From positions 1 to 20,875 of the forward strand of contig CANCKV010000001.1 of the NCBI GenBank assembly GCA_947378615.1: 20,875 nt of DNA, in the 5' to 3' direction. This document shows, one piece after another, positions 2,709 to 18,412 of this stretch. The stretch's first letter is position 1; each line of letters begins with the position of its first letter. The notes beneath the pieces were generated by a model, which saw only the letters and a list, made by a program, of their open reading frames with translations, made no database searches and had not been told where the DNA came from. The stretch is from Chitinophagaceae bacterium (GTDB lineage Bacteria > Bacteroidota > Bacteroidia > Chitinophagales > Chitinophagaceae). The position numbers were made by a program, and so were the translations under genes.

Positions 2709-2776
2709 TTTTCATGAAAAATTAAAGGAAACGAACCAAGATTTTTCGTTTTTCAAAAACAATAACAATTGTTTTT
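2709..2776. promoter_or_regulatory. Three consecutive inverted repeats upstream of nifA
   Basis: In the gap before nifA are a 12-bp palindrome TTTTCATGAAAA (2709-2720), the pair AAACGAA and TTCGTTT (2729-2735 and 2745-2751), and the pair AAAAACAAT and ATTGTTTTT (2755-2763 and 2768-2776, 4-nt loop). Three exact inverted repeats within 70 bp suggest operator sites for nifA control. The last could also be a weak A/T terminator for the preceding HEPN-like gene. No sigma-54 -24/-12 box was found here. Confidence 0.4.
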
Positions 2777-2811
2777 ATAAAATAATGCTACAATTAATTA
2801 CATTATAGAAT

Positions 2812-3210
2812 TTATGCATTAATAGTGATTCCATCAAGAACCAACGCTTTTATCTTATCAAGTACAATAACCATGTTTGAAATGTCTTCATCAGAAATAG
2901 CCTTTTTATCATATTTTGCTAGAGAACAAAGATTTTGAATATTGTCAAAATAGTACATCTGTTCAATAAGGTCATCATCAAGTTCAACAAACTTCTTCAT
3001 TTCCTTTGCCATTGTTTTCAATGTATGGCATAGTGGCAATTCATTTTTGGAAACAAATAATGCCATTATATACTTTTCCAATGACATGGAAATGGTATTG
3101 TACAAAATTTCATTCGTAAAGACGTTCTTTCGCCTTAAACCGCCAATTGATAACTTGTAATAGTCATTGGCTTCTTTTAAAAAATCGCTCTTACTAACTT
3201 CGTGGATCAT
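2812..3210 (-). CDS. Small HEPN-like helical protein
   Basis: With the ATG at 3210 this encodes 132 residues. The frame stays open to 3336, but the extra N-terminal part is basic, unlike the rest, and would overlap nifV by 50 bp, so I prefer the internal start. The protein looks all-helical. The stretch around residues 37-70, with YNTISMSLEKYIMALFV followed by an LPLCHTL turn, resembles the core of HEPN proteins (helix with EK, then a histidine before the next helix). The RX4-6H motif of HEPN ribonucleases is not present, so nuclease activity is not supported. It starts 76 bp after nifV and precedes nifA, which suggests co-transcription and a regulatory or partner role in nitrogen fixation. 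I do not recognise a named family; the HEPN call is tentative. Confidence 0.55.
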   Translation of the reverse strand: MIHEVSKSDFLKEANDYYKLSIGGLRRKNVFTNEILYNTISMSLEKYIMALFVSKNELPLCHTLKTMAKEMKKFVELDDDLIEQMYYFDNIQNLCSLAKYDKKAISDEDISNMVIVLDKIKALVLDGITINA

Positions 3211-3286
3211 GTGCTTAATATTAATTGTGATTGAATGAATTATTTCTTTAAAATTGATGAATATCCTTGTTGGTTTAATCTGTATT

Positions 3287-4408: not shown

Positions 4409-4492
4409 GGTTTTACATTTTAGTTAAAAAAAGGTCTCAACACATAGGCATATAGTCTCAGATAGAAAGACATAGTTTTTTCTATTCCTTAT

Positions 4493-4542
4493 AAAAAAGA
4501 AGTTCACATAGGATGCTACTTCGTAACATTCAGCAACTTCTT
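4493..4542 (-). terminator. Candidate intrinsic terminator after the ferredoxin gene
   Basis: On the minus strand AAGAAGTT (4542-4535) pairs with AACTTCTT (4504-4497), and the second arm runs straight into four more T (4496-4493). The 30-nt interior holds a smaller imperfect stem around ATGTTACGAAGTAGCAT. A stem ending in a T-run 50 bp after the ferredoxin stop fits intrinsic termination before nifV; the stem is A/T-rich, so read-through is likely. Confidence 0.5.
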
Positions 4543-4594
4543 ATTTTATTCCTTCTTTACAGAAATGGGTTAGTAAGAATTAATCAGAATTTAA

Positions 4595-4900
4595 TTAATC
4601 ACAAATCAGGTATTTCTCAACCGCCTTACCTTCTTCTAGAGCTTCGAGAATTTCATCAACCGCTTCTTCGTTAATGGCACCGTACCAAAAATTATGTGGA
4701 TGAACAACTATTACAATACTTTGCGAACAAACATTCAAGCATCCTGTACTTGAAATTACGGCATCGAAACCATGGGCTGGGGCTTCTTCCATCAAATAAT
4801 TAATAATTTCAGGGGCATGCTTTTTGTTACAACCACCTTTTGGTTCTGCACCAATACGATATGAATTACATACTAAAATATGAATTTCAGGCTTCTTCAT
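4595..4900 (-). CDS. Thioredoxin-fold [2Fe-2S] ferredoxin
   Basis: A soluble electron carrier of 101 residues. Cysteines 11, 24, 54 and 58 have the C-X12-C-X29-C-X3-C spacing of thioredoxin-like [2Fe-2S] ferredoxins (Shethna-type and NuoE-like fold); the segment STGCLNVCSQ (51-60) is characteristic. A further cysteine is at residue 100. Similar ferredoxins follow nifB in other nif clusters, including green sulfur bacteria. It may pass electrons to NifB, to cofactor assembly or to NifH, and the sequence cannot decide between these. It lies 180 bp after nifB, with a possible terminator in between. Confidence 0.88.
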   Translation of the reverse strand: MKKPEIHILVCNSYRIGAEPKGGCNKKHAPEIINYLMEEAPAHGFDAVISSTGCLNVCSQSIVIVVHPHNFWYGAINEEAVDEILEALEEGKAVEKYLICD

Positions 4901-5007
4901 GTTTGCTATTTTTTATTATTATGAAAAGTTTTTTTACTAAAAAATCATTCGAATCCCACTATTATACCACTTGGTTAAATGAAGAAATATATTAAGAACA
5001 CTATTTT

Positions 5008-5044
5008 AAAAAAAAATTACCTCTATTAAGTGTTGCCTAGTAAT
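5008..5044 (-). terminator. Candidate weak terminator after nifB
   Basis: On the minus strand ATTACT (5044-5039) can pair with GGTAAT (5021-5016), followed directly by a run of nine T (plus-strand A at 5008-5016). A larger imperfect stem between TGCCTAGTAATATT (5034-5047) and AATATTAGGCA (5077-5087) overlaps the end of nifB and could compete. The stem is short and the loop long, so termination would be partial at best. Confidence 0.35.
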
Positions 5045-5080
5045 ATTACTTTGTTATCCTATGGAAAAACTTGGAAAATA

Positions 5081-6352
5081 TTAGGCACACCCCACTGCTG
5101 TACCCCGACAAGTATCCCCACATTTGAAAGCATCTGGCATTTTAACCGTCTTTACTTCTTTATTGAAATACACCCCTTCCAATCCTTCGTCAATAATCCC
5201 TGTCATTTGAATGACTCTAATGCCAGAATTTTGTAAAATTTTCAAAGGTTTTGAGCCAACTCCTTCTATTAACATCGCCCTACAGTCCTTTAAAGTTTCA
5301 GCCAACAGTTTCCACCTTTCATCCCCACAACCTGGCTCAGGTGTCACTCTTTCTTCTACATATTGAAAGCCATTTTGAGTTTGTTTGAAAATATACAGTG
5401 TTTCTGCCTCACCAAGATGCATATTTACCAAAGCCCCTTCTAGTGTTGCTACGGCAGTGTATGGTCTATCTTCGGTAGGCTTCAACGGACGCATAGAATA
5501 TTCTCTCAACATGTCATTCGTACCTTCAAAATCATGACCAAGTAATCCTGCTGCATCTGCCCTACATCGAGAACAATGTGTCATTAAACTGATATGTTCT
5601 TTTACTTCTTTACGCAAATTAGTCATCATAGATGCAGTTGGTTTCTCAGTATCTTCAAATGCAGTGTCTTTAGTTGGCAAAATTGGAATACAATTCATCA
5701 CATCGGCACCTAGTGAAGCCACCTTCTTTGCCACTTCTTCCACATGTTTATCATTGACTCCTGGAACTATTACTGAATTAATTTTAACTGTTATTCCCTT
5801 AGCCTTTAACAATGGAATTGCTTCTAATTGACGACTAATCATTAGTTCGGCGGCGGCTTTACCACGATAGATTACCTTATTATCACGAACCCACGCATAG
5901 ATTTGACCACCTATTTCTGAATCAATAGCGTTGATAGTTATTGTTACGTGGGTAACATTATATTCGGCTATCTTATCGATATATGGTTTGAGGTTAAGTC
6001 CATTTGTAGAAAGACAAAATATCTTTTCTGGAAAAGCCTCATTTGCCAAACGCATCGTTTCAAGGGTTTCTTCAGGATTGGCAAATGGGTCGCCTGGTCC
6101 TGCAATTCCTATTACAGAAAGATTGGGCAAATGTGCATCCAAATCCTTTAAATACTCAACAGCCTGATAGGGAGAGAGGATTGCAGAACTCACGCCTGGT
6201 CGGCTTTCGTTTACGCAATCAAACTTTCTGTTGCAATAATTGCAACTTATATTACACTTTGGAGCCACTGGTAAATGTACTCGGGAATGTGTGTGACGGG
6301 CTTCTGCATCAAAACATGGATGTGCAGTAGTGTTTGTTGTTGCTGCTGACAT
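5081..6352 (-). CDS. nifB: NifB, radical SAM FeMo-co precursor synthase with NifX-like C-terminal domain
   Basis: Makes NifB-co, the [8Fe-9S-C] core of FeMo-co, by fusing two [4Fe-4S] clusters and inserting a SAM-derived carbon. The radical SAM motif CNISCNYC (C33, C37, C40) and AGPGDPF (84-90) are present, as is HCSRCRADAAG (259-269), which holds the conserved Cys pair near the auxiliary clusters. From about residue 298 a NifX/dinitrogenase iron-molybdenum cofactor-binding domain follows, so this is the two-domain form; no separate nifX is seen. The C-terminus is a cysteine-bearing tail (C411, C415, C422). The ATG at 6352 has the expected N-terminal HPCFDAEARHTHSRVHLPVA segment. It lies 181 bp after nifN, across a repeat-filled spacer. 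Confidence 0.97.
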   Translation of the reverse strand: MSAATTNTTAHPCFDAEARHTHSRVHLPVAPKCNISCNYCNRKFDCVNESRPGVSSAILSPYQAVEYLKDLDAHLPNLSVIGIAGPGDPFANPEETLETMRLANEAFPEKIFCLSTNGLNLKPYIDKIAEYNVTHVTITINAIDSEIGGQIYAWVRDNKVIYRGKAAAELMISRQLEAIPLLKAKGITVKINSVIVPGVNDKHVEEVAKKVASLGADVMNCIPILPTKDTAFEDTEKPTASMMTNLRKEVKEHISLMTHCSRCRADAAGLLGHDFEGTNDMLREYSMRPLKPTEDRPYTAVATLEGALVNMHLGEAETLYIFKQTQNGFQYVEERVTPEPGCGDERWKLLAETLKDCRAMLIEGVGSKPLKILQNSGIRVIQMTGIIDEGLEGVYFNKEVKTVKMPDAFKCGDTCRGTAVGCA

Positions 6353-6360
6353 AAAATTAG

Positions 6361-6533
6361 AGTTATAAGTTATGAAATATGAATTATGAAATATGAGTGA
6401 TGAAATATGAGTGATGAGTTCTTTTTTACTTGAAAAATATTAAGGTATGTTGTCATAATAAGTTAAGTATTCTAAATTATAAGTAGTTATGGGACTTCTC
6501 ACTCATCACTTATAACTCATAGTTCATCACTCA
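6361..6533 (-). repeat. Spacer repeat array with complementary arm, nifN/nifB
   Basis: The gap after nifN holds copies of ATGAGTGATGAAAT-like words (6361-6420) and, directly after the nifN stop, a complementary arm (about 6495-6533) containing CACTCATCACTTATAACTCA. The two can form a long imperfect hairpin in the mRNA with a loop of about 75 nt. It shares its words with the spacer after the TonB-receptor gene. Confidence 0.75.
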
Positions 6534-7943
6534 TTAAATATATTTATAGCCTATTGGCGAATTTTCTTGCTTGTATTCTATCAGGGCATTTACTATCCTA
6601 TCGAAAAGCTGCATTGTTCCCTGATAACCAAGATGTTGTAAACGTTGAGCCCCAAATCTGTCGTGGACTGGAAATCCTATTCGTACCAAAGGAATATTCA
6701 GTCTTCTTGCTATATAATACCCTTTGCTATGACCTATGATAATATCGGGTTTCAACTCATCTGCCATTTCATTCATGGATTCAAAGTCCATATTGTTCAT
6801 TATTTTCACATCTTTAGTTTTGCCTTCGGTCAATTCATCTATCATTTGTTTGAGACGTCCACCTGTTCCACCGGAAGCAATCAAGACAGGTTCGATTCCT
6901 ATTTCCAATAGTAACAGAACCATACCAATGACCAAATCTTCTTCACCATAGATAATGGCACGCTTTCCGAAGGTATATTTATGACCATCCACATAAGAAT
7001 CTATCAATCGCCCACGTTCATCTTTCAATTTTTGGGAAGTTGGCTTATTGGAAAACCACTCCAATAATTCAAAGAATTTATCGGTTTCCTTTATTCCTAT
7101 TGGCATTCCAATCCGATGATAAGGAATATTCCTATTGACTTCGAGCCATTCGCCTGCAGTCAACACTTGTTTGGCTTTATTGACCCTAGTATTCATGGCT
7201 CCTTCATTTAGGATATATCCAAACTCAATGGAACCTCTTGCAGCACCTGTACGTTTGATATCGGAAACCAAAGTTCCACCGGGAGGAATCAAATGATATT
7301 TTTCCCAATTTGGATTATCAAGAGAATCAGAATAGTCGGGAAACAGTACATAATCTAAACCAAAACTGCTTATAATCTCTTTCAAATGACGGATATCTTG
7401 AGGGGAAACAAAACCAGAAAAGATATTGATATGTTCCCCGACTTTGGCATCTTTTACTGCCAAAGTGGAAATAGTTGCAGAAACAGTCTCGTGGAAACCA
7501 TCGATGTGAGTGCCTTGATAACCTGGAGTAGAGGCATAAACCAATTCAGGCAATAATTCAGACCCCCAATTCATTTGTCGATATTCTTTTATCAACCGAT
7601 TAACATCCTCACCAATTGTTTCACTCAAACAGGCTGAAGAAATTCCAATTACTTCGGGTCTGTATTGTCTGATAATATTATCCAAACCAAGATTGAAGTT
7701 TTTATGTCCTCCAAAGATGGTGGTCTCTTCGCTAAAATTAGTAGAAGCAATATCAACAGGTTCCTTAAAATGACTGATTATATACCGACGGATATAAGTA
7801 GCACAACCTTGTGAACCATGAATCATCGGGATACAACCATGAATACCTTTGAACACAAGGCTCGCACCTAAAGGGGAACAAAGCTTGCAGGCATTGCGGA
7901 CGGAAGCGGCACTTCCTGGCATTTTTGTAGTAGATGATTCCAT
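6534..7943 (-). CDS. nifN: NifN, FeMo-co scaffold beta-like subunit
   Basis: Forms the NifE2N2 scaffold on which NifB-co matures to FeMo-co. The 469-residue protein is NifK-like: ACKLCSPLGASLVF (18-31), GIHGCIPMIHGSQGCATY (33-50), FGGHKN and CLSETIGEDV all match the NifK/NifN side of the family. It is placed directly after nifE, as usual, and differs from the real NifK upstream. The ATG at 7943 gives a typical short N-terminus. It is separated from nifE by a repeat spacer of 204 bp and from nifB by one of 181 bp. Confidence 0.93.
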   Translation of the reverse strand: MESSTTKMPGSAASVRNACKLCSPLGASLVFKGIHGCIPMIHGSQGCATYIRRYIISHFKEPVDIASTNFSEETTIFGGHKNFNLGLDNIIRQYRPEVIGISSACLSETIGEDVNRLIKEYRQMNWGSELLPELVYASTPGYQGTHIDGFHETVSATISTLAVKDAKVGEHINIFSGFVSPQDIRHLKEIISSFGLDYVLFPDYSDSLDNPNWEKYHLIPPGGTLVSDIKRTGAARGSIEFGYILNEGAMNTRVNKAKQVLTAGEWLEVNRNIPYHRIGMPIGIKETDKFFELLEWFSNKPTSQKLKDERGRLIDSYVDGHKYTFGKRAIIYGEEDLVIGMVLLLLEIGIEPVLIASGGTGGRLKQMIDELTEGKTKDVKIMNNMDFESMNEMADELKPDIIIGHSKGYYIARRLNIPLVRIGFPVHDRFGAQRLQHLGYQGTMQLFDRIVNALIEYKQENSPIGYKYI

Positions 7944-7970
7944 TGCTTTTTAATTTAAAGTGTGTTTTGT

Positions 7971-8147
7971 TGTACGTTATAAGTTTTACGTTATAAGTTA
8001 TAAGTTTTACGTTATAAGTTATAAGTTTTACGTTGTACGTTTTACGTTGTACGTTTTACGTTGTGAGTTTTACGTTGTGAGTTTTACGTTGTGAGTTTTA
8101 CGTTATATGTTTCAGAACGTTTAACGTATAACTTAAAACGTAATACT
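7971..8147 (-). repeat. Spacer repeat array with complementary arm, nifE/nifN
   Basis: About ten copies of words such as TTTTACGTTGTGAG and TTTTACGTTATAAG fill 7971-8113. Directly after the nifE stop is the complementary arm (8117-8145, containing ACGTATAACTTAAAACGTA). In the transcript this arm comes first, then a short loop, then the array, giving a large A/U-rich hairpin just beyond the nifE stop. Confidence 0.8.
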
Positions 8148-9473
8148 CTAACGGGTGAATTGCCAAACTGGGCTCATTGCGGTGGCGTAAATTTCTTTTG
8201 CAAAATTTAGCATCCCTTCATAACCTGCTAGTCCCTCCTTTCGTTCGTGATTATGGTCGCAGAAACCAAGACCTAACTTATAAGCAATAGGACGTTCCTT
8301 GACCCCACCAATGAAAATGTCTGCTTTCTTTTCTTTTACAAATTGAGAAAGTTCAATAGGGTTTGAGTCATCTACTATGATAGTTCCTTCATCACAAAGC
8401 TCTTGAATGAGTGCATAATCTTCGGGAGTTCCAGTTTGAGAACCAACTACCACTGTTTGTACTCCTATCAACCGTAGAGCTTTTATCAGAGAGATTGCCT
8501 TGAAAGAACCTCCTACATAGATGGCTGCCTTTTTACCTTGAAGTTTTTCCTTATACATTCTGATTACAGGCATGATTCGGGCAAACTCTTCTTTTATGAG
8601 GAGTGAGGCATTTTCCATCAACTCCTTTTCCTTAAAAAACTTTGCCACACCATATAGCGCATCTGACATATCCTCGACACCAAAATAAGATACCTTCATA
8701 AAAGGCTGACCATATTTTTCCTTCATAATTTTTGCCAGATACATCATTGAACCTGAACATTGTACTACATTTAGTCCTGCCTTGTGTGCGTTCCTAATGT
8801 CATCTACACGTCCATCACCCGTTATTGTAGCATTGATGTAGATACCCATTTTCCGATAATATTCCTGCAATAACCATAACTCACCTGCGATATTGAAATC
8901 GCCAAGAATATTGATGCTAATCTTAGGAATTTCCCTGTCTGAAGTACCTACTAAAGTTGCTAAGGCCTCACATGCCACCTTATAACCATCTTTTTTTGTG
9001 CCACTATAACCAGGAGATTGTACTGGAATAATGGTCAATTGCTTTTCTTTGCTTACCCGCCTACAAACGGCCTCCATGTCATCGCCGATGACACCTACCA
9101 AGCAAGTCGAGTAAACAAAGGCAGCCTTTGGTTTATATCGGTCAATCAATTCGGATAACGACTCGTAAAGTTTTGTTTCGCCACCAAAAACAACTTCTTT
9201 CTCATGCAAATCTGTTGAAAAGCTATTTCGATGCAACTCTGGACCCGATGATAAAGCCCCCCGAATATCCCATGTATAAGCAGCACAACCAATTGGGCCG
9301 TGAATGACATGGAGGGCATCACTTATAGGATACAATACCACCCTAGAACCACAAAATACACATGCACGCTGACTGACAGAACCTGCAAGACTTGGCTTCG
9401 CACATTGTATCTTTTGACTTGTATCGCCGCTACGAACAATTTGTTTTTCACGACCTGTAAGGAAATTATCCAT
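8148..9473 (-). CDS. nifE: NifE, FeMo-co scaffold alpha-like subunit
   Basis: Partner of NifN in the FeMo-co assembly scaffold. The 441-residue protein is NifD-like: ACVFCGSRVVLYP (37-49) with C38, HGPIGCAAYTWDIRG (58-72) with C63, STCLVGVIGDD (122-132) with C124, then QCSGSMMYLAKIM, which occupies the position of the NifD cofactor-cysteine segment. These three cysteines would hold the P-cluster-like [4Fe-4S] cluster. It lacks the NifD histidine segment HSYDYGGPY, consistent with a scaffold rather than a catalytic subunit. It follows nifK across a 246-bp spacer with repeats. Confidence 0.94.
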   Translation of the reverse strand: MDNFLTGREKQIVRSGDTSQKIQCAKPSLAGSVSQRACVFCGSRVVLYPISDALHVIHGPIGCAAYTWDIRGALSSGPELHRNSFSTDLHEKEVVFGGETKLYESLSELIDRYKPKAAFVYSTCLVGVIGDDMEAVCRRVSKEKQLTIIPVQSPGYSGTKKDGYKVACEALATLVGTSDREIPKISINILGDFNIAGELWLLQEYYRKMGIYINATITGDGRVDDIRNAHKAGLNVVQCSGSMMYLAKIMKEKYGQPFMKVSYFGVEDMSDALYGVAKFFKEKELMENASLLIKEEFARIMPVIRMYKEKLQGKKAAIYVGGSFKAISLIKALRLIGVQTVVVGSQTGTPEDYALIQELCDEGTIIVDDSNPIELSQFVKEKKADIFIGGVKERPIAYKLGLGFCDHNHERKEGLAGYEGMLNFAKEIYATAMSPVWQFTR

Positions 9474-9480
9474 GGCGGGT

Positions 9481-9719
9481 ATAGTTATGAGTTATGAATT
9501 ATGAGTGATGAGTAGTAGGTATTAAGTTTTACGTTATACGTTTTAAGTTTTACGTTGTACGTTGTACGTTGAGTAGAGAGTTGAAGGAAGTTACTTTTAG
9601 GAATATAAAATCAGAAATCGAGCTACATAAATTACAATTCAGTCTGCGTTAAACGTTAAACTTAAAACGTAATACCTATAACTAATAACCTAATACTTAT
9701 AACCTAATACTTCCTTAGC
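9481..9719 (-). repeat. Spacer repeat array with complementary arm, nifK/nifE
   Basis: The 246-bp gap after nifK contains both repeat types: ATGAGTTATGAATTATGAG (9488-9506) and TTAAGTTTTACGTTATACG (9522-9570 region). The opposite arm (9645-9718) with TTAAACTTAAAACGTAATAC and three CCTAATACTTATAA-like words lies directly after the nifK stop. The unrelated 75 bp between them would be the hairpin loop. Confidence 0.75.
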
Positions 9720-11102
9720 TTACATGGTCAATTCTACCTTTTCTTCCCTACATTCCCTGTCTTCCTTATCCAAAATTGCATTCAGCATTTTTACTACAAG
9801 GTTCATTCCACCAACATAACCTGTGATTGGAAAATGACTATGTCCCACACGGTCAAGAATTGGGAAACCAACCCTAATTAAAGGAATATTTTCGTCACGT
9901 GCAATATATTTTCCGTAGCTATTGCCAATAATCAAATCAACAGGTTCTTGTTTAATCCATTGATGAAGTAAGAACATGTCGGCACGTTCACCATTCTTAA
10001 ACTTCGCTTCAGGAACTTTTTCAGATAACAAGGCTGACATTGCTGTGCCAAACTTATTTCCTGGCGTACCACTAACGATATAAACAGGTTTCATATCTAG
10101 AGACAATAAGAATTCTGTAAGTGGGATAACCGTATCTGGGTCACCAAAAATGGCTACACGTTTACCATAAAAATACTGGTGCATATCGGCAATCATATCG
10201 ACCAAACGACCTCTTTGTTCGGTGATTTCATCAGGAACATGTACTCTTGCAGCCTTGCTTAATGCCATTACAAATTTATCGGTAGCCTCAAGACCAATTG
10301 GGAGATTTAGAATATCGAAAGGAACCTTACATTTATTTTCCAATAACACGGCTGCATCTTCAGAACAGAAAGGGCCTAAACCAATCGTATATCTGCTATC
10401 ACCTGTGCTAACTAAATCGGGAACTGTAACGCCACCTTTGGGATAAAACTCATGATGACCAGTTAGAGGGGCATCCAAAACATCGGAAGTATCTGGAAAA
10501 AGAATTGTTTTAATTCCCATGATGGAAGTTATGTTCTTAATTTCCCTCATATCGCTAGGTTCGCACCAACCTGCAATGATGTTTACCTGATTTTTCTTGG
10601 TCACACTCTTTCCAGAGAAGTATTTAACCATTGCCGTAACCATATTGGCATAACCTGTAACGTGGGAACCGACATAACTTGGTGTATTACAATGAATGAG
10701 AAATTTCCCCTCGGGAACATAATTATCATCCCTAGCCTTTTGAAGTATCTGATTCACATCATCGCCGATTGTTTCGGAAAGACAAGTGGTATGAACAGCA
10801 ATGATATCGGGATTATAAACCGTAAAGATGGTTTCGACGGCTTGCAGTAAATTGGCTTGTCCACCAAATACTGAAGTTCCTTCGGTAAAAGAACTTGTTG
10901 CAGCCATAACGGGTTCCTTGTAATGACGGGTCAAGGCACTACGGTGGTAAGAACAACAACCTTGAGAACCGTGGCTGTGTGGAAGACAACCATGAATACC
11001 AAGGGCTGCATACATTGCACCAACAGGCTGACAGGTTTTTGCTGGGTTAATTGTGAGCGCTTCCCTTTCTATAATAGTATCGTTTGTATGTCGTAATAGC
11101 AT
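9720..11102 (-). CDS. nifK: NifK, nitrogenase MoFe protein beta subunit
   Basis: Pairs with NifD to form the alpha2beta2 dinitrogenase that holds the P-clusters. The 460 residues begin just before the family core. P-cluster ligands are C24 (TCQPVGAMYAALG), C49 (HGSQGCC) and C107 (TTCLSETIGDD); Ser146 in PSYVGSHVTGY matches the P-cluster serine. The protein lacks the N-terminal extension of about 45 residues found in Azotobacter NifK, as is usual for group II/III enzymes. No delta-subunit gene (anfG or vnfG) lies between nifD and nifK, so this is the molybdenum type. It lies 218 bp after nifD, a wide gap for an obligate partner, filled by an array of 14-bp repeats. Confidence 0.97.
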   Translation of the reverse strand: MLLRHTNDTIIEREALTINPAKTCQPVGAMYAALGIHGCLPHSHGSQGCCSYHRSALTRHYKEPVMAATSSFTEGTSVFGGQANLLQAVETIFTVYNPDIIAVHTTCLSETIGDDVNQILQKARDDNYVPEGKFLIHCNTPSYVGSHVTGYANMVTAMVKYFSGKSVTKKNQVNIIAGWCEPSDMREIKNITSIMGIKTILFPDTSDVLDAPLTGHHEFYPKGGVTVPDLVSTGDSRYTIGLGPFCSEDAAVLLENKCKVPFDILNLPIGLEATDKFVMALSKAARVHVPDEITEQRGRLVDMIADMHQYFYGKRVAIFGDPDTVIPLTEFLLSLDMKPVYIVSGTPGNKFGTAMSALLSEKVPEAKFKNGERADMFLLHQWIKQEPVDLIIGNSYGKYIARDENIPLIRVGFPILDRVGHSHFPITGYVGGMNLVVKMLNAILDKEDRECREEKVELTM

Positions 11103-11126
11103 TTTGTTTAAATTTAAAAGTGAATA

Positions 11127-11281
11127 ATAATTGGTAATAGGTTATAAGTAATAGGTTATAAGTAGTATGTTTTAAGTTATACGTTTTAAGTTATACGTTC
11201 TAAGTTATACGTTTTAAGTTATACGTTTTAAGTTATACGTTTTAAGTTATACGTTTTAAGTTATGCGTTTTAAGTTTTGAG
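11127..11281 (-). repeat. 14-bp tandem array, nifD/nifK spacer
   Basis: Eight head-to-tail units of 14 bp run from 11170 to 11281. The unit is TTTTAAGTTATACG on the plus strand; units 1, 2, 4, 5 and 6 are identical, unit 3 has one change, unit 7 has one (ATGCG) and unit 8 is more diverged. Looser copies of AATAGGTTATAAGT precede it (11136-11168). Unlike the other spacers, no clear complementary arm follows the nifD stop. Near-identical units point to recent expansion by slippage or recombination. Confidence 0.9.
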
Positions 11282-11320
11282 TATTACTACTTAGATTGCA
11301 AACTCATTTAGAATCGATTT

Positions 11321-12934
11321 CTAAGCGGCGTATTCAGCTTCAATAGTTACTTCTCTTTCCCAAGGTGCCTTTATCTTTTTCCAAATTGTGGTATTTACAA
11401 TCATGGCAATATCCTTGTAAAAATTGATAGCTCCTTCAAATCCTGAGTAAGGACCACCGTAATCGTAACTATGTAATTGTTTCAATGGAATGCCCATTTT
11501 TTGTACACAAAATTTTTCTTTGATACCTGCACAAAATACATCTGGATGATATAATTCAATCAGTTTTTCCATTTCGTAATGGCTAAGGTCATCAATAATC
11601 AATGCCCCTTTCAGCATATCTTTCATCATACCATCATAAGAGTTGAATTCGATACCCTTTTCTGCCAAAGCTGCTTTTTCTTCTTCAGTCTTACGAGGAT
11701 TATAACGGGTTTCATCTTGTTCAATATCTAACTCTTCGATATTTCTGCTATCTGCGTCAACTTTGATAGTAGGAATAACACTTCTACCTTCATAATCATC
11801 ACGGTGACCAAATTCATAACCTGCAGACAGTGTACTCATACCAAGTTCGGTAAACAATTCCTGAAAATGGTGTGCCCTTGAACCACCTACAAATAGCATG
11901 GCAACCTTTCCTTTAGTTTGGTCATACACCTTTTCGAGTTCTGCATTTACCAACGCCATTTCTTCGGCAATCACTGCTTCGACCCTGTCGATTAATTCTT
12001 GGTCACCAAAGTACTCGGCAATTTTTCTGAAAGATTTCGCAGTAGCTTCTGCTCCAGTAAAGTTTACTTTGAACCAAGGCAAACCAAATTTCTTCTCCAT
12101 CATTTCGGCAACATAATTGATTGAACGGTGACAAACCACCACATTTAAATCAGCATGGTGAGCTGCTTCAAATTTTTCCATTGTAGAGTTACCACTGAAA
12201 GAAGAAACAAGAGTAAGGCCACATTTCTCGAAGATTCTTTCCAATTCAAAACCATCACCACCAATATTATAGTCGCCCAACATATTGACTTTGTATTTTC
12301 CTTCAGGAATCGTATTACCAAGACCAATAACGTGTTTCATCAAACCATTGTTAGCGATGTGGTGTCCCGCACTCTGACTAACACCCTTGTAGCCTTCGCA
12401 GCTAAATCCAAAGATATTGATGCCTAATTCGGCTTTCATTTCGCGGGCAACTGCATGTACATCATCTCCAATCAAACCAACAGGACAAGTAGAGAAGATT
12501 CCGATGCTTTTAGGTTTGAAGATTTCAAAAACTTCCCTAACTGCCTGTTTCAATTTTAGTTCTCCACCAAATACAATATTTGAGTCTTGCATATCGGTAG
12601 AAAAGCAGTAATTCATGAAGTTTTCTGATTCGGGAGTAGGAGGTAATGTTTGGTTACGACGTGTCAACCAAGCATAAAAGCTACAACCAATTGGACCATG
12701 AACGAGATTGATGATGTCGCGGGTTGGACCCAGTATCACCCCTTTACAACCTGCATAGGTACAACCACGTTGGGTAATTATACCTGGTGCTGTTCTTACA
12801 TTCGCTTGAATTGGGTGAATGACATCACTATCGTTTACTACAATAGATTTCTCCCTTTTCTTGGCTAACTTTTTAGGGTACTTTTTCAATACCTCTTCTT
12901 TCCATCTTTGTGTATCAATTTCTGTGTGAATCAT
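11321..12934 (-). CDS. nifD: NifD, nitrogenase MoFe protein alpha subunit
   Basis: Catalytic subunit that carries FeMo-co. Of 537 residues, C58, C84 and C150 are P-cluster ligands. FeMo-co is bound by C268 (VVCHRSINY) and H488 (QLHSYDYGGPY). Active-site residues equivalent to Azotobacter V70, R96, Q191 and H195 are V66, R92, Q187 and H191; the residue matching H451 is Ser497. About 60 extra residues near 375-440 correspond to the insert of Clostridium-type NifD and explain the length. All key residues are intact, so the enzyme should be functional. It starts only 11 bp after the nifI2 stop, so the two genes are closely coupled in translation. Confidence 0.98.
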   Translation of the reverse strand: MIHTEIDTQRWKEEVLKKYPKKLAKKREKSIVVNDSDVIHPIQANVRTAPGIITQRGCTYAGCKGVILGPTRDIINLVHGPIGCSFYAWLTRRNQTLPPTPESENFMNYCFSTDMQDSNIVFGGELKLKQAVREVFEIFKPKSIGIFSTCPVGLIGDDVHAVAREMKAELGINIFGFSCEGYKGVSQSAGHHIANNGLMKHVIGLGNTIPEGKYKVNMLGDYNIGGDGFELERIFEKCGLTLVSSFSGNSTMEKFEAAHHADLNVVVCHRSINYVAEMMEKKFGLPWFKVNFTGAEATAKSFRKIAEYFGDQELIDRVEAVIAEEMALVNAELEKVYDQTKGKVAMLFVGGSRAHHFQELFTELGMSTLSAGYEFGHRDDYEGRSVIPTIKVDADSRNIEELDIEQDETRYNPRKTEEEKAALAEKGIEFNSYDGMMKDMLKGALIIDDLSHYEMEKLIELYHPDVFCAGIKEKFCVQKMGIPLKQLHSYDYGGPYSGFEGAINFYKDIAMIVNTTIWKKIKAPWEREVTIEAEYAA

Positions 12935-12945
12935 AATTTTTAATT

Positions 12946-13326
12946 TTAATCTAATGTAGAAATACCTCTTTCACCTGAACTTACCTTGACAGACTCAAGT
13001 GCTTCGAGGACAAATATTTTTCCATCACCACTATTATTGGTTTGATTAACCTTAATAATGGTCTCAATTGCCAAATCCTTTTTATCATCGGTAACAACTA
13101 AGTTTATCATTCTTTTTGCTTTTAAATGATGTTCAGCTACCGATTCTTCCAATAAAGGATTGGGTTCAAGGTCTTCGATGGCATGTTTATAGTTTTCACC
13201 TAAAGCCCTTCCGTTTCCCCTTCCAGAAACACTCATTGCAGTAAAAGAAGGCAAACCAGCATCAGAAAGGGCTTTTTTTGTTTCATTCATTTTTCTGATA
13301 CGTATAATTGCTAGTATTAATTTCAT
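12946..13326 (-). CDS. nifI2: NifI2, PII-like nitrogenase switch-off regulator
   Basis: A PII-family protein of 126 residues. With NifI1 it forms a complex that binds dinitrogenase and blocks NifH access when 2-oxoglutarate is low (known from methanogens). It starts MKLILAIIRIRKM, has SVSGRGNGRA before an elongated, acidic T-loop region (about 45-70), and GDGKIFVLEALESVKVSSGERG near the C-terminus, where PII proteins bind ATP. The long T-loop without the uridylylated Tyr of GlnB and its place between nifH and nifD mark it as NifI2. Confidence 0.94.
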   Translation of the reverse strand: MKLILAIIRIRKMNETKKALSDAGLPSFTAMSVSGRGNGRALGENYKHAIEDLEPNPLLEESVAEHHLKAKRMINLVVTDDKKDLAIETIIKVNQTNNSGDGKIFVLEALESVKVSSGERGISTLD

Positions 13327-13377
13327 TTGTTAGAGTTATTGAGATAAAAATTCGGGTGAATGATATGGTTTATAGCT

Positions 13378-13450
13378 GAAAGTTGTACGTTTTAAGTTAT
13401 ACGTTTTACGTTGTACGTTGTATGTTTTAAGTTGTACTTAGTACGTTTTG
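13378..13450 (-). repeat. Spacer repeat array, nifI1/nifI2
   Basis: About five irregular copies of TGTACGTTTTAAGTTA-like words fill the middle of the 157-bp gap. Orientation and words match the arrays after nifD and nifE. No good complementary arm was found, apart from the short pair GAAAGT and ACTTTC at its edges. Confidence 0.7.
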
Positions 13451-13483
13451 AAACTTTCCTACTATCTATAAGATGATTTCTAA

Positions 13484-13813
13484 TTAAGAAACCTCTTTTT
13501 GGCCACTCGAGATAGTATAACTTTCAATAACTGGTGTTATAAAAATTTTCCCGTCCCCAAAAGCACCTTTTGCTCCTGTCCTTGCGGCTTCAATGATCGT
13601 GCTGATAACAAAATCCTTATCTGCATCTTTAATTACAATCAACAACAATTCTTTTGGAAGTTCATCATAAGTGATATCACCTACTTTTAGACCTCTTTGC
13701 TTTCCACGTCCAAAAACTGACATTTTTGTAGTGCCTGGAAAACCAACATTTATTAAGGCTTTTAAAACTGAACTTGCTTTTTCGGGACGTACAATTGCTC
13801 TTATTAGTAACAT
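13484..13813 (-). CDS. nifI1: NifI1, PII-like nitrogenase switch-off regulator
   Basis: A PII-family protein of 109 residues and partner of NifI2. It begins MLLIRAIVRPEKASSVLKAL, has the MSVFGRGKQRGLKVGD segment leading into a shortened T-loop (about 38-55), and AFGDGKIFITPVIESYTISSGQ at the C-terminus. These are the NifI1 hallmarks; a general GlnB or GlnK would carry a Tyr-containing T-loop and lie next to amtB or glnA. It lies 123 bp after nifH; that gap has only A/T-rich DNA and no repeat array. Confidence 0.94.
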   Translation of the reverse strand: MLLIRAIVRPEKASSVLKALINVGFPGTTKMSVFGRGKQRGLKVGDITYDELPKELLLIVIKDADKDFVISTIIEAARTGAKGAFGDGKIFITPVIESYTISSGQKEVS

Positions 13814-13936
13814 TATTTTTATTTTAAATGATGATTAAAAGTTTTGAAAAGAAAGATGATTTTTAGTTATTTTTTATTGAATCACCGCTTTTCTTTCATT
13901 TGGTGTAAAACTTGACTCTATAGAAAATCAATCCTA

Positions 13937-14782
<846 letters not shown>

Positions 14783-14796
14783 TCAATAATAATAAT

Positions 14797-14812
14797 TGCA
14801 ACAGGTATGCCA
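14797..14812 (-). promoter_or_regulatory. Sigma-54 (-24/-12) promoter of nifH
   Basis: Read on the minus strand the site is TGGCATACCTGTTGCA, against the consensus TGGCAC-N5-TTGCW: one mismatch (T for C at the sixth base) and exact GG-N10-GC spacing. Transcription would start near 14786, giving a leader of about 22 nt before the nifH ATG. The -24 half lies in the palindrome TGCCATGGCA. It is the only site of this quality I found in the gaps. Confidence 0.88.
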
Positions 14813-14858
14813 TGGCATGAATGTTTAATTTGGGGATAAGTACAAATCGGTTTACAAA

Positions 14859-14875
14859 GTATTGAAAAACAATAC
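14859..14875. promoter_or_regulatory. Small inverted repeat between promoter and upstream palindrome
   Basis: GTATTG and CAATAC (6-bp perfect arms) flank AAAAA, about 50 bp upstream of the -24 box. Its position between the putative activator site and the promoter suggests a second operator or a bend site; function unknown. Confidence 0.35.
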
Positions 14876-14932
14876 ATTTTATTTTTAGAATAAATTTGGA
14901 TGTAACATTTTGAAGAATTCAATAAATATTGA

Positions 14933-14954
14933 TTTCCTACATTGATGTAGGAAA
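14933..14954. promoter_or_regulatory. Candidate NifA upstream activator site (22-bp palindrome)
   Basis: TTTCCTACAT (14933-14942) and ATGTAGGAAA (14945-14954) are perfect arms around a TG centre. Its centre is about 132 bp upstream of the -24 box, within the usual range for an enhancer site of a sigma-54 activator. No classical TGT-N10-ACA NifA site occurs between 14765 and 15114, so this palindrome is the best candidate for NifA or another nif regulator. The rest of this 350-bp gap is A/T-rich, with no gene visible. Confidence 0.55.
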
Positions 14955-15114
14955 ATTGGGCAAGAATTACAAGAATGAAACTTAATAATAGATTATTTCA
15001 AAAGCTAATATGGAGTCAGAATTGTAGAAATACTAAAGAATGATAATAATTATGTTGCTAATAAAGCTTATATCAAAAGGAAATTGACCACTATTTCAAA
15101 ATGATAATAAATTT

Positions 15115-15624
15115 CTATTTAAAGCGATTATCTGAACGCAATTTTTCTAAAGGCAAATCAAGATTCTTTTCAAGCCACCCAACCTTAACATTTTCTCGAT
15201 TATCATACTTTGGAAAAAATGGTTTTATATCAATTAAAGGGGTTTCGTCAAGCTTGTCGACTTGTTCAATATGAATGATATTGCCTTCGATACCCAATAG
15301 TTTTACGGTAGAAAGTCCGATTGCATTAGGGCGTTTAGGGGCCTTACAGGAGAAAATGCCCCTCTTTTCAGCGTCCATAAATGGAACAACCTCTAAATCA
15401 TAGCCTTCAATTTTATGAACCCTATAGATTAATATGATGTGCGAAAATCCATCAAGGTCTTTCAATCCTTCCAAATAGTTAGGCAGTAATTCAATATATC
15501 CCTTAATTCCTTCAGCCGCAATTGGCTGAATGGGCATATTTTCAATTATCTTAAAGGGAGTATGAATCACACCAATTGGGTTGATAATGAAAGGTGCTAC
15601 ATTTTTGTTGTTTTCTTGTTTCAT
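15115..15624 (-). CDS. TrmO/TsaA-family protein (tRNA t6A37 N6-methyltransferase-like)
   Basis: The family founder TrmO methylates N6-threonylcarbamoyladenosine at position 37 of tRNA-Thr with SAM, using a beta-barrel fold. Family motifs visible: NPIGVIHTPF near the N-terminus, LKDLDGFSHIILIY, a PFMDAEKRGIFSCKAPKRPNAIGLS block, and DETPLIDIKPFFPKYD. I start at the ATG at 15624 (169 residues, preceded by AATAAAAAT); an upstream ATG at 15663 would add 13 residues. The length fits single-domain members. It lies between modC and nifH, 350 bp from the nif promoter. TsaA-like genes recur near nif and mod genes, as I recall, so a role beyond tRNA is possible, but the sequence does not show one. Confidence 0.85.
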   Translation of the reverse strand: MKQENNKNVAPFIINPIGVIHTPFKIIENMPIQPIAAEGIKGYIELLPNYLEGLKDLDGFSHIILIYRVHKIEGYDLEVVPFMDAEKRGIFSCKAPKRPNAIGLSTVKLLGIEGNIIHIEQVDKLDETPLIDIKPFFPKYDNRENVKVGWLEKNLDLPLEKLRSDNRFK

Positions 15625-15670
15625 ATTTTTATTATTTCTTTGATTATAAAAATTAATATGCAAATTCCTA

Positions 15671-15883
15671 AAAGTGGAATACTAATTTTCAAAACTGGAA
15701 TATTGGGCAAAAAAGTTGGAACTGCATTTTGCTAAACAGATGACATCCTGTATCAAGCTGCCGTATTTCGCAGGTTACTTGGAGGCTTTCGCAAAAGACA
15801 TGGAGGCTTTCGCAAAAGACATGGAGGCTTTCGCAAAAAATTGGAGAGCTTCGCAAAAAATATGGAGAGCTTCGCAATGACAT
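15671..15883. repeat. 20-21-bp periodic repeat array, modC/TrmO spacer
   Basis: Five clear units of 20-21 bp, GGAGGCTTTCGCAAAAGACA or GGAGAGCTTCGCAAAAAATA-like, run from 15781 to 15883. Weaker units with the same spacing extend to the left (AAAGTGGAATA at 15671, AAACTGGAATA at 15692, AAAGTTGGAA near 15711). Each unit carries a CAAAA or CAAAAAA tract, so A-tracts recur every two helical turns. The 411-bp gap has no credible gene. A minus-strand 66-codon frame through it (15689-15889) only translates the repeat. Confidence 0.85.
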
Positions 15884-15886
15884 GGT

Positions 15887-15906
15887 CACCTTATTTTACT
15901 AAGGTG
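15887..15906. other. Hairpin with 7-bp perfect stem
   Basis: CACCTTA (15887-15893) and TAAGGTG (15900-15906) flank a 6-nt loop, next to the end of the periodic array. A further 9-bp pair, AGGTTAATT (15909-15917) and AATTAACCT (15959-15967), follows. No T-run, so termination is not supported. Confidence 0.4.
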
Positions 15907-15996
15907 GAAGGTTAATTATCTTCGCAGACAGGCTGCATAACAACTCGGAAGGCTTGACAATTAACCTGCTCATTGATTTTGCGAGATGGAAAGCTA

Positions 15997-16027
15997 ATAT
16001 AGGTTTCATATAGGTTTCAACCTATAT
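15997..16027 (-). terminator. Possible 3' hairpin of modC
   Basis: ATATAGGTT (16008-16016) and AACCTATAT (16019-16027) are perfect 9-bp arms starting 9 bp after the modC stop; an extra direct copy ATATAGGTTTC lies at 15997-16007. Position fits an mRNA 3' end or stabiliser, but only two nucleotides separate the arms and no T-run follows. Confidence 0.35.
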
Positions 16028-16035
16028 CTACCTAT

Positions 16036-16746
16036 CTACGGTTCATCATTCACCTTTATTCCATTGTTTGCAAAGACTTCTCTAGGCTTTCCTTCACAAA
16101 AAACGTTTCCTTTTTCTATCCAAATCATCCTATCTGCAAGATTCACAATGTCGGCAGGGTCGTGACTGACCATTATCATTGCCATTGGATAGAATTGTTG
16201 TGCTTTTTTAATTTCATTCTGTAAAGAAATCCGCATCCAATAATCTAAAGACGAAAAGGGTTCATCTAATAGCAATACATCTGGTTTGCGTGCCAATGCC
16301 CTTGCCAAAGCCACCCTTTGTTTTTGACCTCCCGAAAGTTTGAGGCAACTTTGTTTGGCAAAAACTCCTAGTCCGAATAATCCGATTAAGTCATCCACCT
16401 CTTTTTTATTTGATATTGTTTGTGCAAACTGGATATTTTCTGCCACAGTCATATTGGGAAACAAGGCATAATCCTGAAACATCATCCCTATATGACGATT
16501 TTGTGGCTTAGCATTTATCTTTTTGCTTTTATCAAACCAAACCTCATCACCATATTTAATGCTGCCCTTATCGGGGATGGTGAGTCCTGCAATCATACGT
16601 AGAATAGTTGTCTTGCCTTCGCCTGATGGACCAAACAGGGCTACAATTTCTCCTTTATTAATTGTTGCATTGAAATTAAGATTGATTTTCCCATAAGGAG
16701 TCATCAGCCCTTTCTCAACCTCAACCTTGATTATATTACTTTCCAT
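16036..16746 (-). CDS. modC: ModC, molybdate ABC transporter ATP-binding protein
   Basis: ATPase that drives molybdate import with ModAB. In 236 residues: Walker A GPSGEGKTT (39-47), Q-loop MMFQDYALFP (88-97), signature LSGGQKQ (137-143), Walker B VLLLDEP (157-163) and H-loop SHD (194-196). All catalytic residues are intact. It is about 110 residues shorter than Escherichia coli ModC and has no C-terminal Mop/TOBE molybdate-binding domain, so it probably lacks the feedback inhibition known for full-length forms. The start overlaps modB by 16 bp, so the two are translationally coupled. Molybdate rather than sulfate specificity rests on context and ModA. Confidence 0.92.
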   Translation of the reverse strand: MESNIIKVEVEKGLMTPYGKINLNFNATINKGEIVALFGPSGEGKTTILRMIAGLTIPDKGSIKYGDEVWFDKSKKINAKPQNRHIGMMFQDYALFPNMTVAENIQFAQTISNKKEVDDLIGLFGLGVFAKQSCLKLSGGQKQRVALARALARKPDVLLLDEPFSSLDYWMRISLQNEIKKAQQFYPMAMIMVSHDPADIVNLADRMIWIEKGNVFCEGKPREVFANNGIKVNDEP

Positions 16747-17411
16747 ACCTCACTTTTTTTATTTGCTCCATAAATTAATGACAGTAATATAAATGATAGG
16801 GCAAACAAGATGAATGCATACTGATTGGCTGACTTGAAATTTAATTCCTGTACTTCATCATAAATTGCAATTGATGCCACCCTCGTTTCGCCCTGAATAT
16901 TGCCGCCGACCATCAATAAGAGTCCAAATTCTCCAATACAATGTGCGAATGTGAGCGCGATTGCTGTAACGATTGAAGGCTTTATATTGGGCAGAAGTAC
17001 TTTTAAAAAAGTTACAGTTTTCGATTTGCCTAGGGTGTAGGCCGCTTCGCTTAGACTATCGGGCAATGAACGTAATCCACTCAATAATGGCTGCACCATA
17101 AATGGCATACTAAATACGATGGATGCTATCAATATGCCAGTGAAGGAGAAGGCGAGATTGATATTGAAGTGTGAAGAAAGCAATGCGCCGAATGCATTTC
17201 GAGGGCTATATAATACGAGTATATAATAACCAATTACAGAAGGAGGCAGTACCATCGGCATACTTATCAATGCTTCGACAATCGGCTTTAAGAAAAACTT
17301 ACAAAAGGTTAGGCAATAAATAACGGGCAGACAAACGACCATAAGGATAATTGTCGTTAATCCTGCGAGCTTAAATGTTACCCATAATGTTTGTAAAAAG
17401 TCTATGTACAT
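16731..17411 (-). CDS. modB: ModB, molybdate ABC transporter permease
   Basis: Inner-membrane channel of the molybdate importer, with the ModB/CysT permease fold. I start at the ATG at 17411 (226 residues, MYIDFLQTLWVTFKLAG), because the longer open frame to 17522 is made of repeat DNA in the spacer and adds a segment not seen in ModB. About five or six hydrophobic helices are visible, and the ABC-contacting EAA loop reads SLSEAAYTLGKSKTVTFLKVLLP. The GEFGLLLMVGGNIQGETRVASIAIYDEV block is typical of ModB. It overlaps modC by 16 bp and lies 126 bp after modA. Confidence 0.93.
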   Translation of the reverse strand: MYIDFLQTLWVTFKLAGLTTIILMVVCLPVIYCLTFCKFFLKPIVEALISMPMVLPPSVIGYYILVLYSPRNAFGALLSSHFNINLAFSFTGILIASIVFSMPFMVQPLLSGLRSLPDSLSEAAYTLGKSKTVTFLKVLLPNIKPSIVTAIALTFAHCIGEFGLLLMVGGNIQGETRVASIAIYDEVQELNFKSANQYAFILFALSFILLSLIYGANKKSEVWKVI

Positions 17412-17537
17412 ATAACACTGATTAGAATAATTAGAGTGAAGCCCCAACCCCTGAAGGGGCAAAGAAACTACTTGATTCAAAAATATTATTATTAATCTTG
17501 CCACAAAGACTCTAAGCCTCAAAGAAGCACAAAGAGA
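17412..17537. repeat. modA/modB spacer with common Bacteroidota repeat words
   Basis: The gap contains the hairpin CCCCTGAAGGGG (17448-17459) in the context GAAGCCCCAACCCCTGAAGG, and a CCACAAAGACTCTAAGCCTC word (17503-17522). Both resemble sequences that recur in intergenic DNA of Bacteroidota, from memory. The G+C-rich stem is the strongest short hairpin in the window and could attenuate transcription between modA and modB. Confidence 0.6.
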
Positions 17538-18275
17538 TTAAGGGAAAGTGTATCCATTTTTCTCAAATATTGGTTTACAGCCTTTACTAAGGATGAATTT
17601 GATGAACTTTTCTGTGGCATCTTTATTTTTTGAACCTTTAAGTGCAACAATTCCTTGGTCAACGGGCTTGTAACTTTTAGTATCTAATAATAAGTAACTA
17701 CCTTTCATTTCGGGTGCTAAAGCCAATGATAATGCCAAAAACCCTATTTGGGCATTGCCAGATTGTGCATATTGAGCTGTTTGAGAAATATTATCAGCAT
17801 ACACAATTTTGTTTTTTACTTTATCTAACATTTGATAATATTTCAAACATTCAATTGCCCTTTCTCCGTAAGGTGCCACTTCGGGTTTGGCAATTGCGAT
17901 ATGAACCACCTCACTTTTTAAAAGAACATTAATAGATTGTGACTTTAAATCAATTGTATTACTCCATAAAACGAGTTTACCATAAGCATAAACATTTACA
18001 TCACCATTGACATTGCCATCAGCTTTGAGTTTCTCAGGAAATGTTCTATCTGCCGACATGAATACATCAAAATCAGCCCCATTAGTAATCTGTTGATATA
18101 AAGTACCTGAAGAACCAAAGGTTACTAATAAATGGATTTGAGGGTTTTGTTTCTCAAACGAAGCCTTTAACTCGTCGAGTACGTAACGAAGATTAGGTGC
18201 AGCAGCAATTTTGATATTTTGAGCTTGAACTGCATAATTTAAAATAATGAATAGAAACAAGATAGTTTTTTTCAT
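17538..18275 (-). CDS. modA: ModA, periplasmic molybdate-binding protein
   Basis: Captures molybdate in the periplasm for ModBC. 245 residues: a signal peptide (about 1-18, MKKTILFLFI, cleavage after VQA), then KIAAAPNLRYVLDELKASFEK, the oxyanion-binding GSSGTL segment (54-59), ADFDVFMSADRTFPEKL, and AKPEVAPYGERAIECL, which all match ModA. No lipobox cysteine is present, so it should be soluble rather than a lipoprotein. It follows the TonB-receptor gene by 144 bp across a hairpin-forming spacer. Tungstate binding cannot be excluded. Confidence 0.93.
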   Translation of the reverse strand: MKKTILFLFIILNYAVQAQNIKIAAAPNLRYVLDELKASFEKQNPQIHLLVTFGSSGTLYQQITNGADFDVFMSADRTFPEKLKADGNVNGDVNVYAYGKLVLWSNTIDLKSQSINVLLKSEVVHIAIAKPEVAPYGERAIECLKYYQMLDKVKNKIVYADNISQTAQYAQSGNAQIGFLALSLALAPEMKGSYLLLDTKSYKPVDQGIVALKGSKNKDATEKFIKFILSKGCKPIFEKNGYTFP

Positions 18276-18288
18276 GTGTTCTTTTTTA

Positions 18289-18412
18289 GTGATGAGTGAT
18301 GAGTGATGAGTTATGAAATATGAGTGGTGAAATATGAGTTGCTATTTTAATTAAATACTATACTGGTATAAATACACCCAAAATACTCATCACTCATAGC
18401 TCATCACTCTTG
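18289..18412 (-). repeat. Spacer repeat array with complementary arm, TonB receptor/modA
   Basis: GATGAGTGATGAGTTATGA-type words (18289-18340) face a complementary arm ACTCATCACTCATAGCTCAT (18384-18411) placed just after the receptor stop. The core of the stem is nearly perfect over about 16 bp, with a loop of about 45 nt. The same words occur in the nifN/nifB and nifK/nifE spacers. Confidence 0.78.

Follow-up and report, generated by a model that had tools for sequence, protein, structure and literature searches.

Genes and heptamer arrays of the nif region

The window, a stretch of 20,875 nt of contig CANCKV010000001.1 from a Chitinophagaceae bacterium (assembly GCA_947378615.1), carries on its minus strand genes for a TonB receptor, modABC, a TrmO-like gene, nifH, two PII-type genes, nifD, nifK, nifE, nifN, nifB, a ferredoxin gene (fdx), nifV and nifA. 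The PII-type genes are labeled nifI1 and nifI2 from their gene position; nifN is also named from its position, since its open reading frame (ORF) scores best with the NifK model. Tandem heptamers fill six of the gaps between these genes. With a probability of roughly 0.7, these spacers are ORF-less copies (four gaps) or one-armed copies (two gaps) of a mobile hairpin element related to the intervening sequences (IVS) of rRNA. The general form of this element would be an arm of heptameric G-rich words, then a loop or a four-helix-bundle (4HB) gene, then an arm of complementary C-rich words, the full form holding a 4HB gene of family PF05635.

An initial annotation of the sequence had placed arrays in the TonB/modA, nifI1/nifI2, nifD/nifK, nifK/nifE, nifE/nifN and nifN/nifB gaps, and heptamer arrays are present in all six:

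18288-18340, plus strand: TonB/modA array (AGTGATG and TGAAATA words), its G-word arm adjoining the modA start; paired stretch 18288-18311
18385-18408, minus strand: TonB/modA complementary arm past the TonB-receptor stop
13378-13450, plus strand: nifI1/nifI2 single array (GTTGTAC and GTTTTAA words) without a paired arm
11137-11280, plus strand: nifD/nifK single array (ATACGTTTTAAGTT) without a paired arm
9483-9575, plus strand: nifK/nifE array adjoining the nifE start; paired stretch 9496-9561
9647-9713, minus strand: nifK/nifE complementary arm past the nifK stop
7969-8112, plus strand: nifE/nifN array (GTTATAA, GTTTTAC and GTTGTAC) adjoining the nifN start; paired stretch 7982-8024
8103-8147, minus strand: nifE/nifN complementary arm past the nifE stop
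6361-6419, plus strand: nifN/nifB array (TATGAGTGATGAAA) adjoining the nifB start; paired stretch 6394-6419
6494-6534, minus strand: nifN/nifB complementary arm past the nifN stop; paired stretch 6508-6533

Four of these gaps are end-to-end inverted repeats, with scores of 20 (TonB/modA), 33 (nifK/nifE), 23 (nifE/nifN) and 20 (nifN/nifB) that none of 200 dinucleotide shuffles of each gap reaches. Their second arm lies directly or nearly directly past the upstream stop codon, as the initial annotation had seen. The nifI1/nifI2 and nifD/nifK gaps hold a single array and no complementary arm (192/200 and 145/200 shuffles, respectively, score as high). Mononucleotide shuffles gave the same presence and absence of arms. 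The annotation was also right that other gaps lack arrays: none is found in nifH/nifI1, nifB/fdx or fdx/nifV, where the best lag-7 identity is 0.37-0.43, and the nifI2/nifD gap is only 11 bp long.

Folding of the spacer RNA, which the annotation had proposed to compare with shuffled controls, clearly exceeds theirs in three gaps (sense-strand z of -6.3 for TonB/modA, -3.3 for nifN/nifB and -2.6 for nifK/nifE; 200 dinucleotide shuffles) and weakly in nifE/nifN (-1.6, 13/200 as low), but not in nifI1/nifI2 (-1.1) or nifD/nifK (+0.7). The antisense strand of the four arm-bearing gaps folds too (z from -2.6 to -5.2, 100 shuffles), and the feature is therefore symmetric in the DNA.

Two further observations concern the window. 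A different repeat occupies the modC/TrmO gap (15752-15885), with about five copies of the 21-bp unit TGGAGGCTTTCGCAAAAGACA, and this gap folds better than its shuffles on both strands. At 2812-3336, a 174-aa ORF without an NCBIfam or Pfam match overlaps the nifV ORF.

Genome-wide spread and polarity

The genome (590 contigs, 68% complete) was sampled through its longest contigs, either 60 contigs (822 kb) including that of the window or the 59 others, with ORFs from a simple caller of our own. Below, G000 denotes this genome, G001-G012 genomes of the same genus, and L numbers individual loci. G000 contains 84 matches to the strict pattern GTTWTAMGTTWTAMGTT and none to its reversed control; the pattern is found in 11/13 genomes of the genus. 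Across the 60 contigs, lag 7 yields 73 arrays and lag 14 yields 61, while lags 5, 6 and 8-13 yield 0-3 each. The repeat unit is thus 7 bp, with 14 and 21 as its multiples, and not the 14-bp-like word initially described. By midpoint, 71/73 lag-7 arrays are intergenic, although ORFs make up 82% of the sequence.

The annotation had proposed counting such words in all gaps of the genome. In the 59 contigs, 74/366 gaps of at least 50 bp contain arrays, comprising 52/257 co-directional, 17/57 convergent and 5/52 divergent gaps, and their polarity relative to the gap edges is not random: under a strand-symmetric rule, the left edge has G-rich words and the right edge C-rich ones. Counted as G-left, G-right, C-left and C-right, the arrays number 25/1/3/28 where the flanking genes are co-directional and 10/0/0/9 where they converge, with 15 neutral. 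The rule rests on these two arrangements, the divergent gaps being too few. Genome G008 has the same polarity (18/1/1/14 co-directional, 4/0/0/3 convergent). An inverted repeat with its G-words first reads alike on both strands, and the strand of the flanking genes is therefore irrelevant.

In co-directional gaps, the C-words lie on the start-proximal side. The arrays in the nif operon do share one orientation relative to transcription, as annotated. However, this is not special to the operon, because it is the genome-wide polarity rule viewed in an operon transcribed from one strand; the consistent position that the annotation had singled out is the same rule seen again.

Many arrays reach almost to the coding sequences, 62/97 (clipped to the gap) ending at most 10 bp from a coding end. 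All three frames reach a stop within 40 nt at 51% and 57% of the edges of array gaps versus 31% of other edges, which is only suggestive of a role of the words in supplying stop codons. In the G000 sample, the arms of one gap score at least 15 against each other in 24/61 array gaps, compared with 104/720 pairings of arms from different gaps and 7/202 array-free gaps.

4HB genes and their flanks

PF05635 is the family of the four-helix-bundle 23S rRNA-intervening sequence protein (S23p), with solved relatives 2gsc and 2rld. It is present in 12/13 genomes of the genus, with 0-9 matches each, and in 0/14 control genomes; matches also occur in 112/147 sampled genomes of the family and 157/198 of the phylum. 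Among loci that were the best-scoring matches and not a random draw, 27/31 in the genus could be tested for their flanks (3 had no ORF found and 1 a short flank). Inverted flanks enclose 17/27 of these 4HB genes versus 9/779 other ORFs and 0/136 ORFs of at most 160 aa, and both flanks are heptameric at 16/27 versus 28/779 other ORFs. In the family sample (27 ORFs from 26/29 loci), inverted flanks occur at 16/27 4HB ORFs and 1/43 neighbor ORFs, and in the phylum sample at 11/27 4HB genes. A stricter test with complete flanks covered 27/30 loci for the phylum, 21/29 for the family, 25/30 for the genus, 7/30 for GIY-YIG and 16/30 for Y1_Tnp.

The polarity of the gaps recurs around these genes. 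In high-scoring cases, the left arm is G-rich in 15/15 genus, 10/12 family (the other 2/12 are not G-rich) and 11/11 phylum loci. Outside the genus, many arms of 4HB genes carry other words and periods. Within it, nif-type words flank 4HB genes of sister species: GTTATACG-type words in G010 (L174) and G006 (L173), and TGATGAG/TTATGAG-type words in G002 (L177, L188). The 4HB ORF is absent from the copies in the nif gaps and present in sister elements at other gaps. In G000, ORF-less arrays are far more numerous than 4HB genes.

Two 4HB elements have co-directional neighbors. One (L188, 1446-1827) adjoins a ribonucleotide reductase small-chain gene, and another (L002, 1449-1821) lies between ABC transporter ATPase and permease genes. 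GIY-YIG genes were also considered as carriers and rejected, on a thin test: 5 short-gene loci were testable of 30, of which 1 had a high inverted-repeat score (non-heptameric) and 0 had two-sided heptamers.

Alternative states of the same gap

Three gaps occur in different states among sister species. The gap between rpoN and the following gene, a 209-aa ORF without a Pfam match, was measured in 9/12 loci. It spans 490-495 bp in G007, G004 and G006, where heptamer arms enclose an intact 4HB gene, and 100-153 bp as an ORF-less heptamer hairpin in G000, G008 and G003. In G010 it is 79 bp long and pairs weakly; in G005 and G012 it measures about 100 bp and has no more than a few C-words. The words differ between species, yet a left arm tends to match the right arm of its own gap: of 5040 assignments, 4 give a sum as high as that observed, counting the observed one itself and ties, a figure that ignores kinship and to which G010 contributes a poor fit.

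At the gap between araA and an NrtR-type NUDIX gene (5 measured of 9 loci taken from 25), G000 has a 4HB element and G008, its closest relative on the rpoN tree, has an ORF-less gap of 122 bp in which 25/26 bases of the left arm are the same as in G000. ORF-less hairpins occupy this gap in G007 and G002. Related 4HB genes (87%) stand in opposite orientation in G000 (L338) and G001 (L342), as would follow from an inversion of the element or from two separate arrivals.

The argC/argD gap was measured in 8/9 argC loci. An element of 525-526 bp with nif-type words lies there in G010 and G006, and this presence in 2/8 measured genomes indicates patchy spread. The gap is 35-40 bp with a few C-words in G001, G007 and G004, and 32-105 bp without such words in G011, G005 and G012. 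Between G006 and G010, the element is 98.5% identical and its 4HB ORF 99.2%, whereas argC is 86.0% identical (84.5% over its last 200 nt) and argD 88.6% (92.5% over its first 200 nt); identity between these two species thus steps near the borders of the element. Similarly, the rpoN-gap elements of G004 and G006 are 96.1% identical versus 86.7% for rpoN and 91.4% for the next gene. On the rpoN tree, whose deep forks are weak, G010 clusters with G007 and G006 with G004 and G003 (each 100/99). For the argC/argD element, the simplest account of these identities would be a recent transfer confined to about the element itself.

The nif operon and its relatives

The nif operon (1016-14764) is seemingly an acquisition within its genus. 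A search for nifE found it in 0/98 relatives, 12 of them of the same genus. The window has a GC content of 0.366, and its GC and tetranucleotide distance is inside the range of the 59 other contigs, 19 of which are farther from the mean. Its contig may nonetheless have been misbinned into this genome, because nifE is missing from all relatives searched. The closest nif operon found is that of Paraflavisolibacter caeni (L005; nifH 92%, nifE 82%), whose gaps from nifH to nifB measure 16-45 bp and contain no heptamers.

Some other Bacteroidota nif operons (L013, and L014 from Natronoflexus pectinivorans) have heptamer hairpins made of other words. In other genomes, 61/289 nif gaps pass a 60-shuffle test for inverted repeats; of these 61, 22 have a G-rich left arm, 36 a C-rich one and 3 an equal one, and 15 are heptameric. 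Given the 36/61 C-rich left arms, the polarity rule does not hold for all inverted repeats of nif gaps. Among 40 listed inverted-repeat nif gaps, 20 read CCCC...GGGG and represent a different family. Over all gaps of 80 nif loci, polarity is weaker (co-directional 16/6/8/24, 37 neutral), and lags 8, 9 and 16 are raised too. Because other Bacteroidota nif operons hold either heptamer hairpins of other words or different inverted-repeat families, nif spacers seem to have been colonized repeatedly.

A different inverted-repeat family, with the sequence ACCCCTAACCCCTAAAGGGG, fills nif gaps of L020, L026, L027, L029, L031, L037 and others, and the nifE/nifN gap of L029 has an array of the 8-bp word GATTGGTT plus its complement.

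Origin of the nif spacers

The arms, their polarity, their spread through the genome, the association with 4HB genes, the alternative gap states in sister species and the identity step at the borders of the argC/argD element together point to copies of a mobile hairpin element, and the nif repeats are probably selfish. Also in favor are the nif-type words around 4HB genes of sister species, the array-free gaps of the nearest nif operon found and the parts shared with the Coxiella IVS. The suggestion of the initial annotation that they are selfish short repeats tolerated between genes is thus supported, and sharpened to the arms of a mobile hairpin that holds a 4HB gene in sister species. Copies lie in intergenic gaps, operon-internal ones included, and often almost abut the coding sequences. 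In a polycistronic RNA, its arms would form a stem, possibly cut by RNase III as in rRNA IVS. Such a cut would separate cistrons and leave coding regions unharmed, and tolerance of the element by operons would then have the same cause as that of IVS by rRNA. ORF-less copies could arise through loss of the 4HB gene, or the gene could enter existing hairpins; heptamer slippage and copying between arms would keep the arms matched. The nif operon would have been colonized after its arrival in the genus. From the sequences compared here, both mobility and RNase III processing are predicted.

Several results weigh against this interpretation. Two of the six nif arrays have no second arm. Inverted flanks fall below the threshold at 10/27 4HB genes of the genus and 16/27 of the phylum sample. 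Array-free gaps skew slightly in the same direction as array gaps (G/C 2386/1977 at the left edge, 1963/2506 at the right edge). The short argC/argD gaps keep a few C-words, and in G004 one end resembles the right end of the element, so that these gaps may not be pristine empty sites. Gain and loss of the 4HB gene both fit the gap states, and the rpoN tree, with its weak deep forks, does not settle between them. Finally, 4HB genes were looked for in 80 nif loci of relatives and none turned up; the link between 4HB genes and the nif gaps therefore runs via shared words, polarity and other sites.

Plain microsatellites provide a simpler alternative, which is doubtful here. Polymerase slippage would expand the heptamers and template switching would make the second arm, with no mobile element involved. 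Heptamers are over-represented in many bacteria, which has been attributed to slippage (work cited in PMC4692102 and PMC4679880), and the differing words at one gap between species and the excess of ORF-less arrays over 4HB genes in this genome are in keeping with it. However, slippage does not anticipate the polarity rule, the inverted heptamer flanks of 4HB genes, the presence or absence of a 490-525-bp unit, or the argC/argD identity step. It may nonetheless help to shape the arms of a mobile element.

It is very unlikely that the hairpins and arrays are functional nif elements, acting as 3' stabilizers, as RNase targets or as signals in translation and thereby fixing the NifD/K/E/N/B ratios. 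Three of the six spacers clearly outfold their shuffles and a fourth does so weakly, the arrays stand just before start codons, where translational control has been proposed for other repeats (MacGregor, 2015; PMC4679880), and heptamer hairpins also occur in nif gaps of L013 and L014. Nevertheless, regulation specific to nif is set aside as the main explanation because the arrays occur throughout the genome and their polarity persists between convergent genes. The annotation's proposal of 3' stabilizers or processing sites setting subunit ratios finds no positive support, given the same arrays between other genes, and is further weakened by the heptamer-free gaps of P. caeni, the variation of words and places between nif operons, and the two of six arrays without a folding partner. 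The copies may still have an effect on processing or on nif subunit ratios.

Movement as a miniature inverted-repeat transposable element (MITE) or repetitive extragenic palindrome (REP) by a transposase such as Y1_Tnp (RAYT) is scarcely credible: the elements are short, intergenic, inverted and present in many copies, and 9/16 testable Y1_Tnp genes of the genus have inverted flanks, but two-sided heptamers occur at 0/16, and G000 has arrays without a Y1_Tnp match (in an assembly 68% complete, and with other transposase families not searched). A target-site duplication, as a MITE would leave, would be masked by the degenerate repeats at the two edges.

Comparison with known repeat systems

The elements link heptamer gap repeats, the multi-copy 4HB genes of Bacteroidota, and the origin and movement of rRNA IVS. 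Searches of open-access literature found no title or abstract opening that connects heptamer gap repeats to 4HB genes. Mobility and RNase III processing can be tested directly on gaps that are full, ORF-less or short in different sister species, and the findings caution against taking operon-internal hairpins in Bacteroidota for evolved regulators.

REP/RAYT systems resemble the gap elements in being short intergenic inverted repeats, some of which flank a gene. Their carrier is a Y1_Tnp gene, unlike here, where none of 16 Y1_Tnp loci tested in the genus has two-sided heptamers. The BrickBuilt MITE of Porphyromonas gingivalis is likewise an intergenic Bacteroidota element with a tandem repeat inside an inverted repeat; however, its unit is 23 nt with a separate leader and tail, and its abstract does not mention 4HB (PMC4596501). 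The heptameric simple repeats of Xanthomonas and Nostoc are tandem and mostly intergenic, as here, but are built on the G-rich, quadruplex-forming unit GGGAATC, and the portion of the article available mentions no carrier gene (PMC4692102).

Direct repeats of the heptamer TAACTGA form arrays near start codons, for which translational control, rearrangement or carriage by mobile elements was considered (MacGregor, 2015; PMC4679880). Their forward orientation near the start codon recalls the start-proximal C-words of co-directional gaps. The words differ: nine gaps of the window were tested and none contains tandem TAACTGA or TCAGTTA. The repeats described here also come with inverted partner arms and a 4HB carrier, whereas the main text of that paper contains neither "S23" nor "helix bundle".

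The closest parallel is with rRNA IVS, hairpin elements of which some carry an S23p ORF (PMC4990558). The IVS in helix 45 of Coxiella 23S rRNA has a 28-bp terminal stem and, upstream of its ORF, two or three tandem GACAGAT heptamers where RNase III cuts and whose number varies between strains; one strain has a large deletion in the IVS ORF (PMC4990558). The gap elements share terminal inverted repeats that form a stem, tandem heptamers next to the ORF, decay of the ORF in some copies and a patchy distribution; their full form, though not the copies in the nif gaps, also contains a PF05635-type ORF, which not every IVS has. Such a stem is found in 4/6 nif-region gaps and at 17/27 4HB genes of the genus, and is lacking in nifI1/nifI2 and nifD/nifK. 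IVS lie inside rRNA genes and are excised by RNase III, whereas the gap elements lie between protein genes (nif, modA/TonB receptor, rpoN, argC/argD and araA/NrtR-type NUDIX) and have heptamers in both arms. Thus, they are not IVS by definition but, by analogy, may work like them. The odds lean slightly towards a broader view, in which the gap elements belong to a large, as yet unnamed class of intercistronic intervening sequences in Bacteroidota. Its members would have arms built from short words in tandem, heptamers for the most part in this genus, with G-words 5' and C-words 3', and a 4HB gene in the full form. ORF-less copies would occupy about a fifth of the sampled gaps of this genome, also inside operons such as nif. 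Some heptamer repeats elsewhere may be remnants of the class, and rRNA IVS would be those of its members that landed in rRNA genes.

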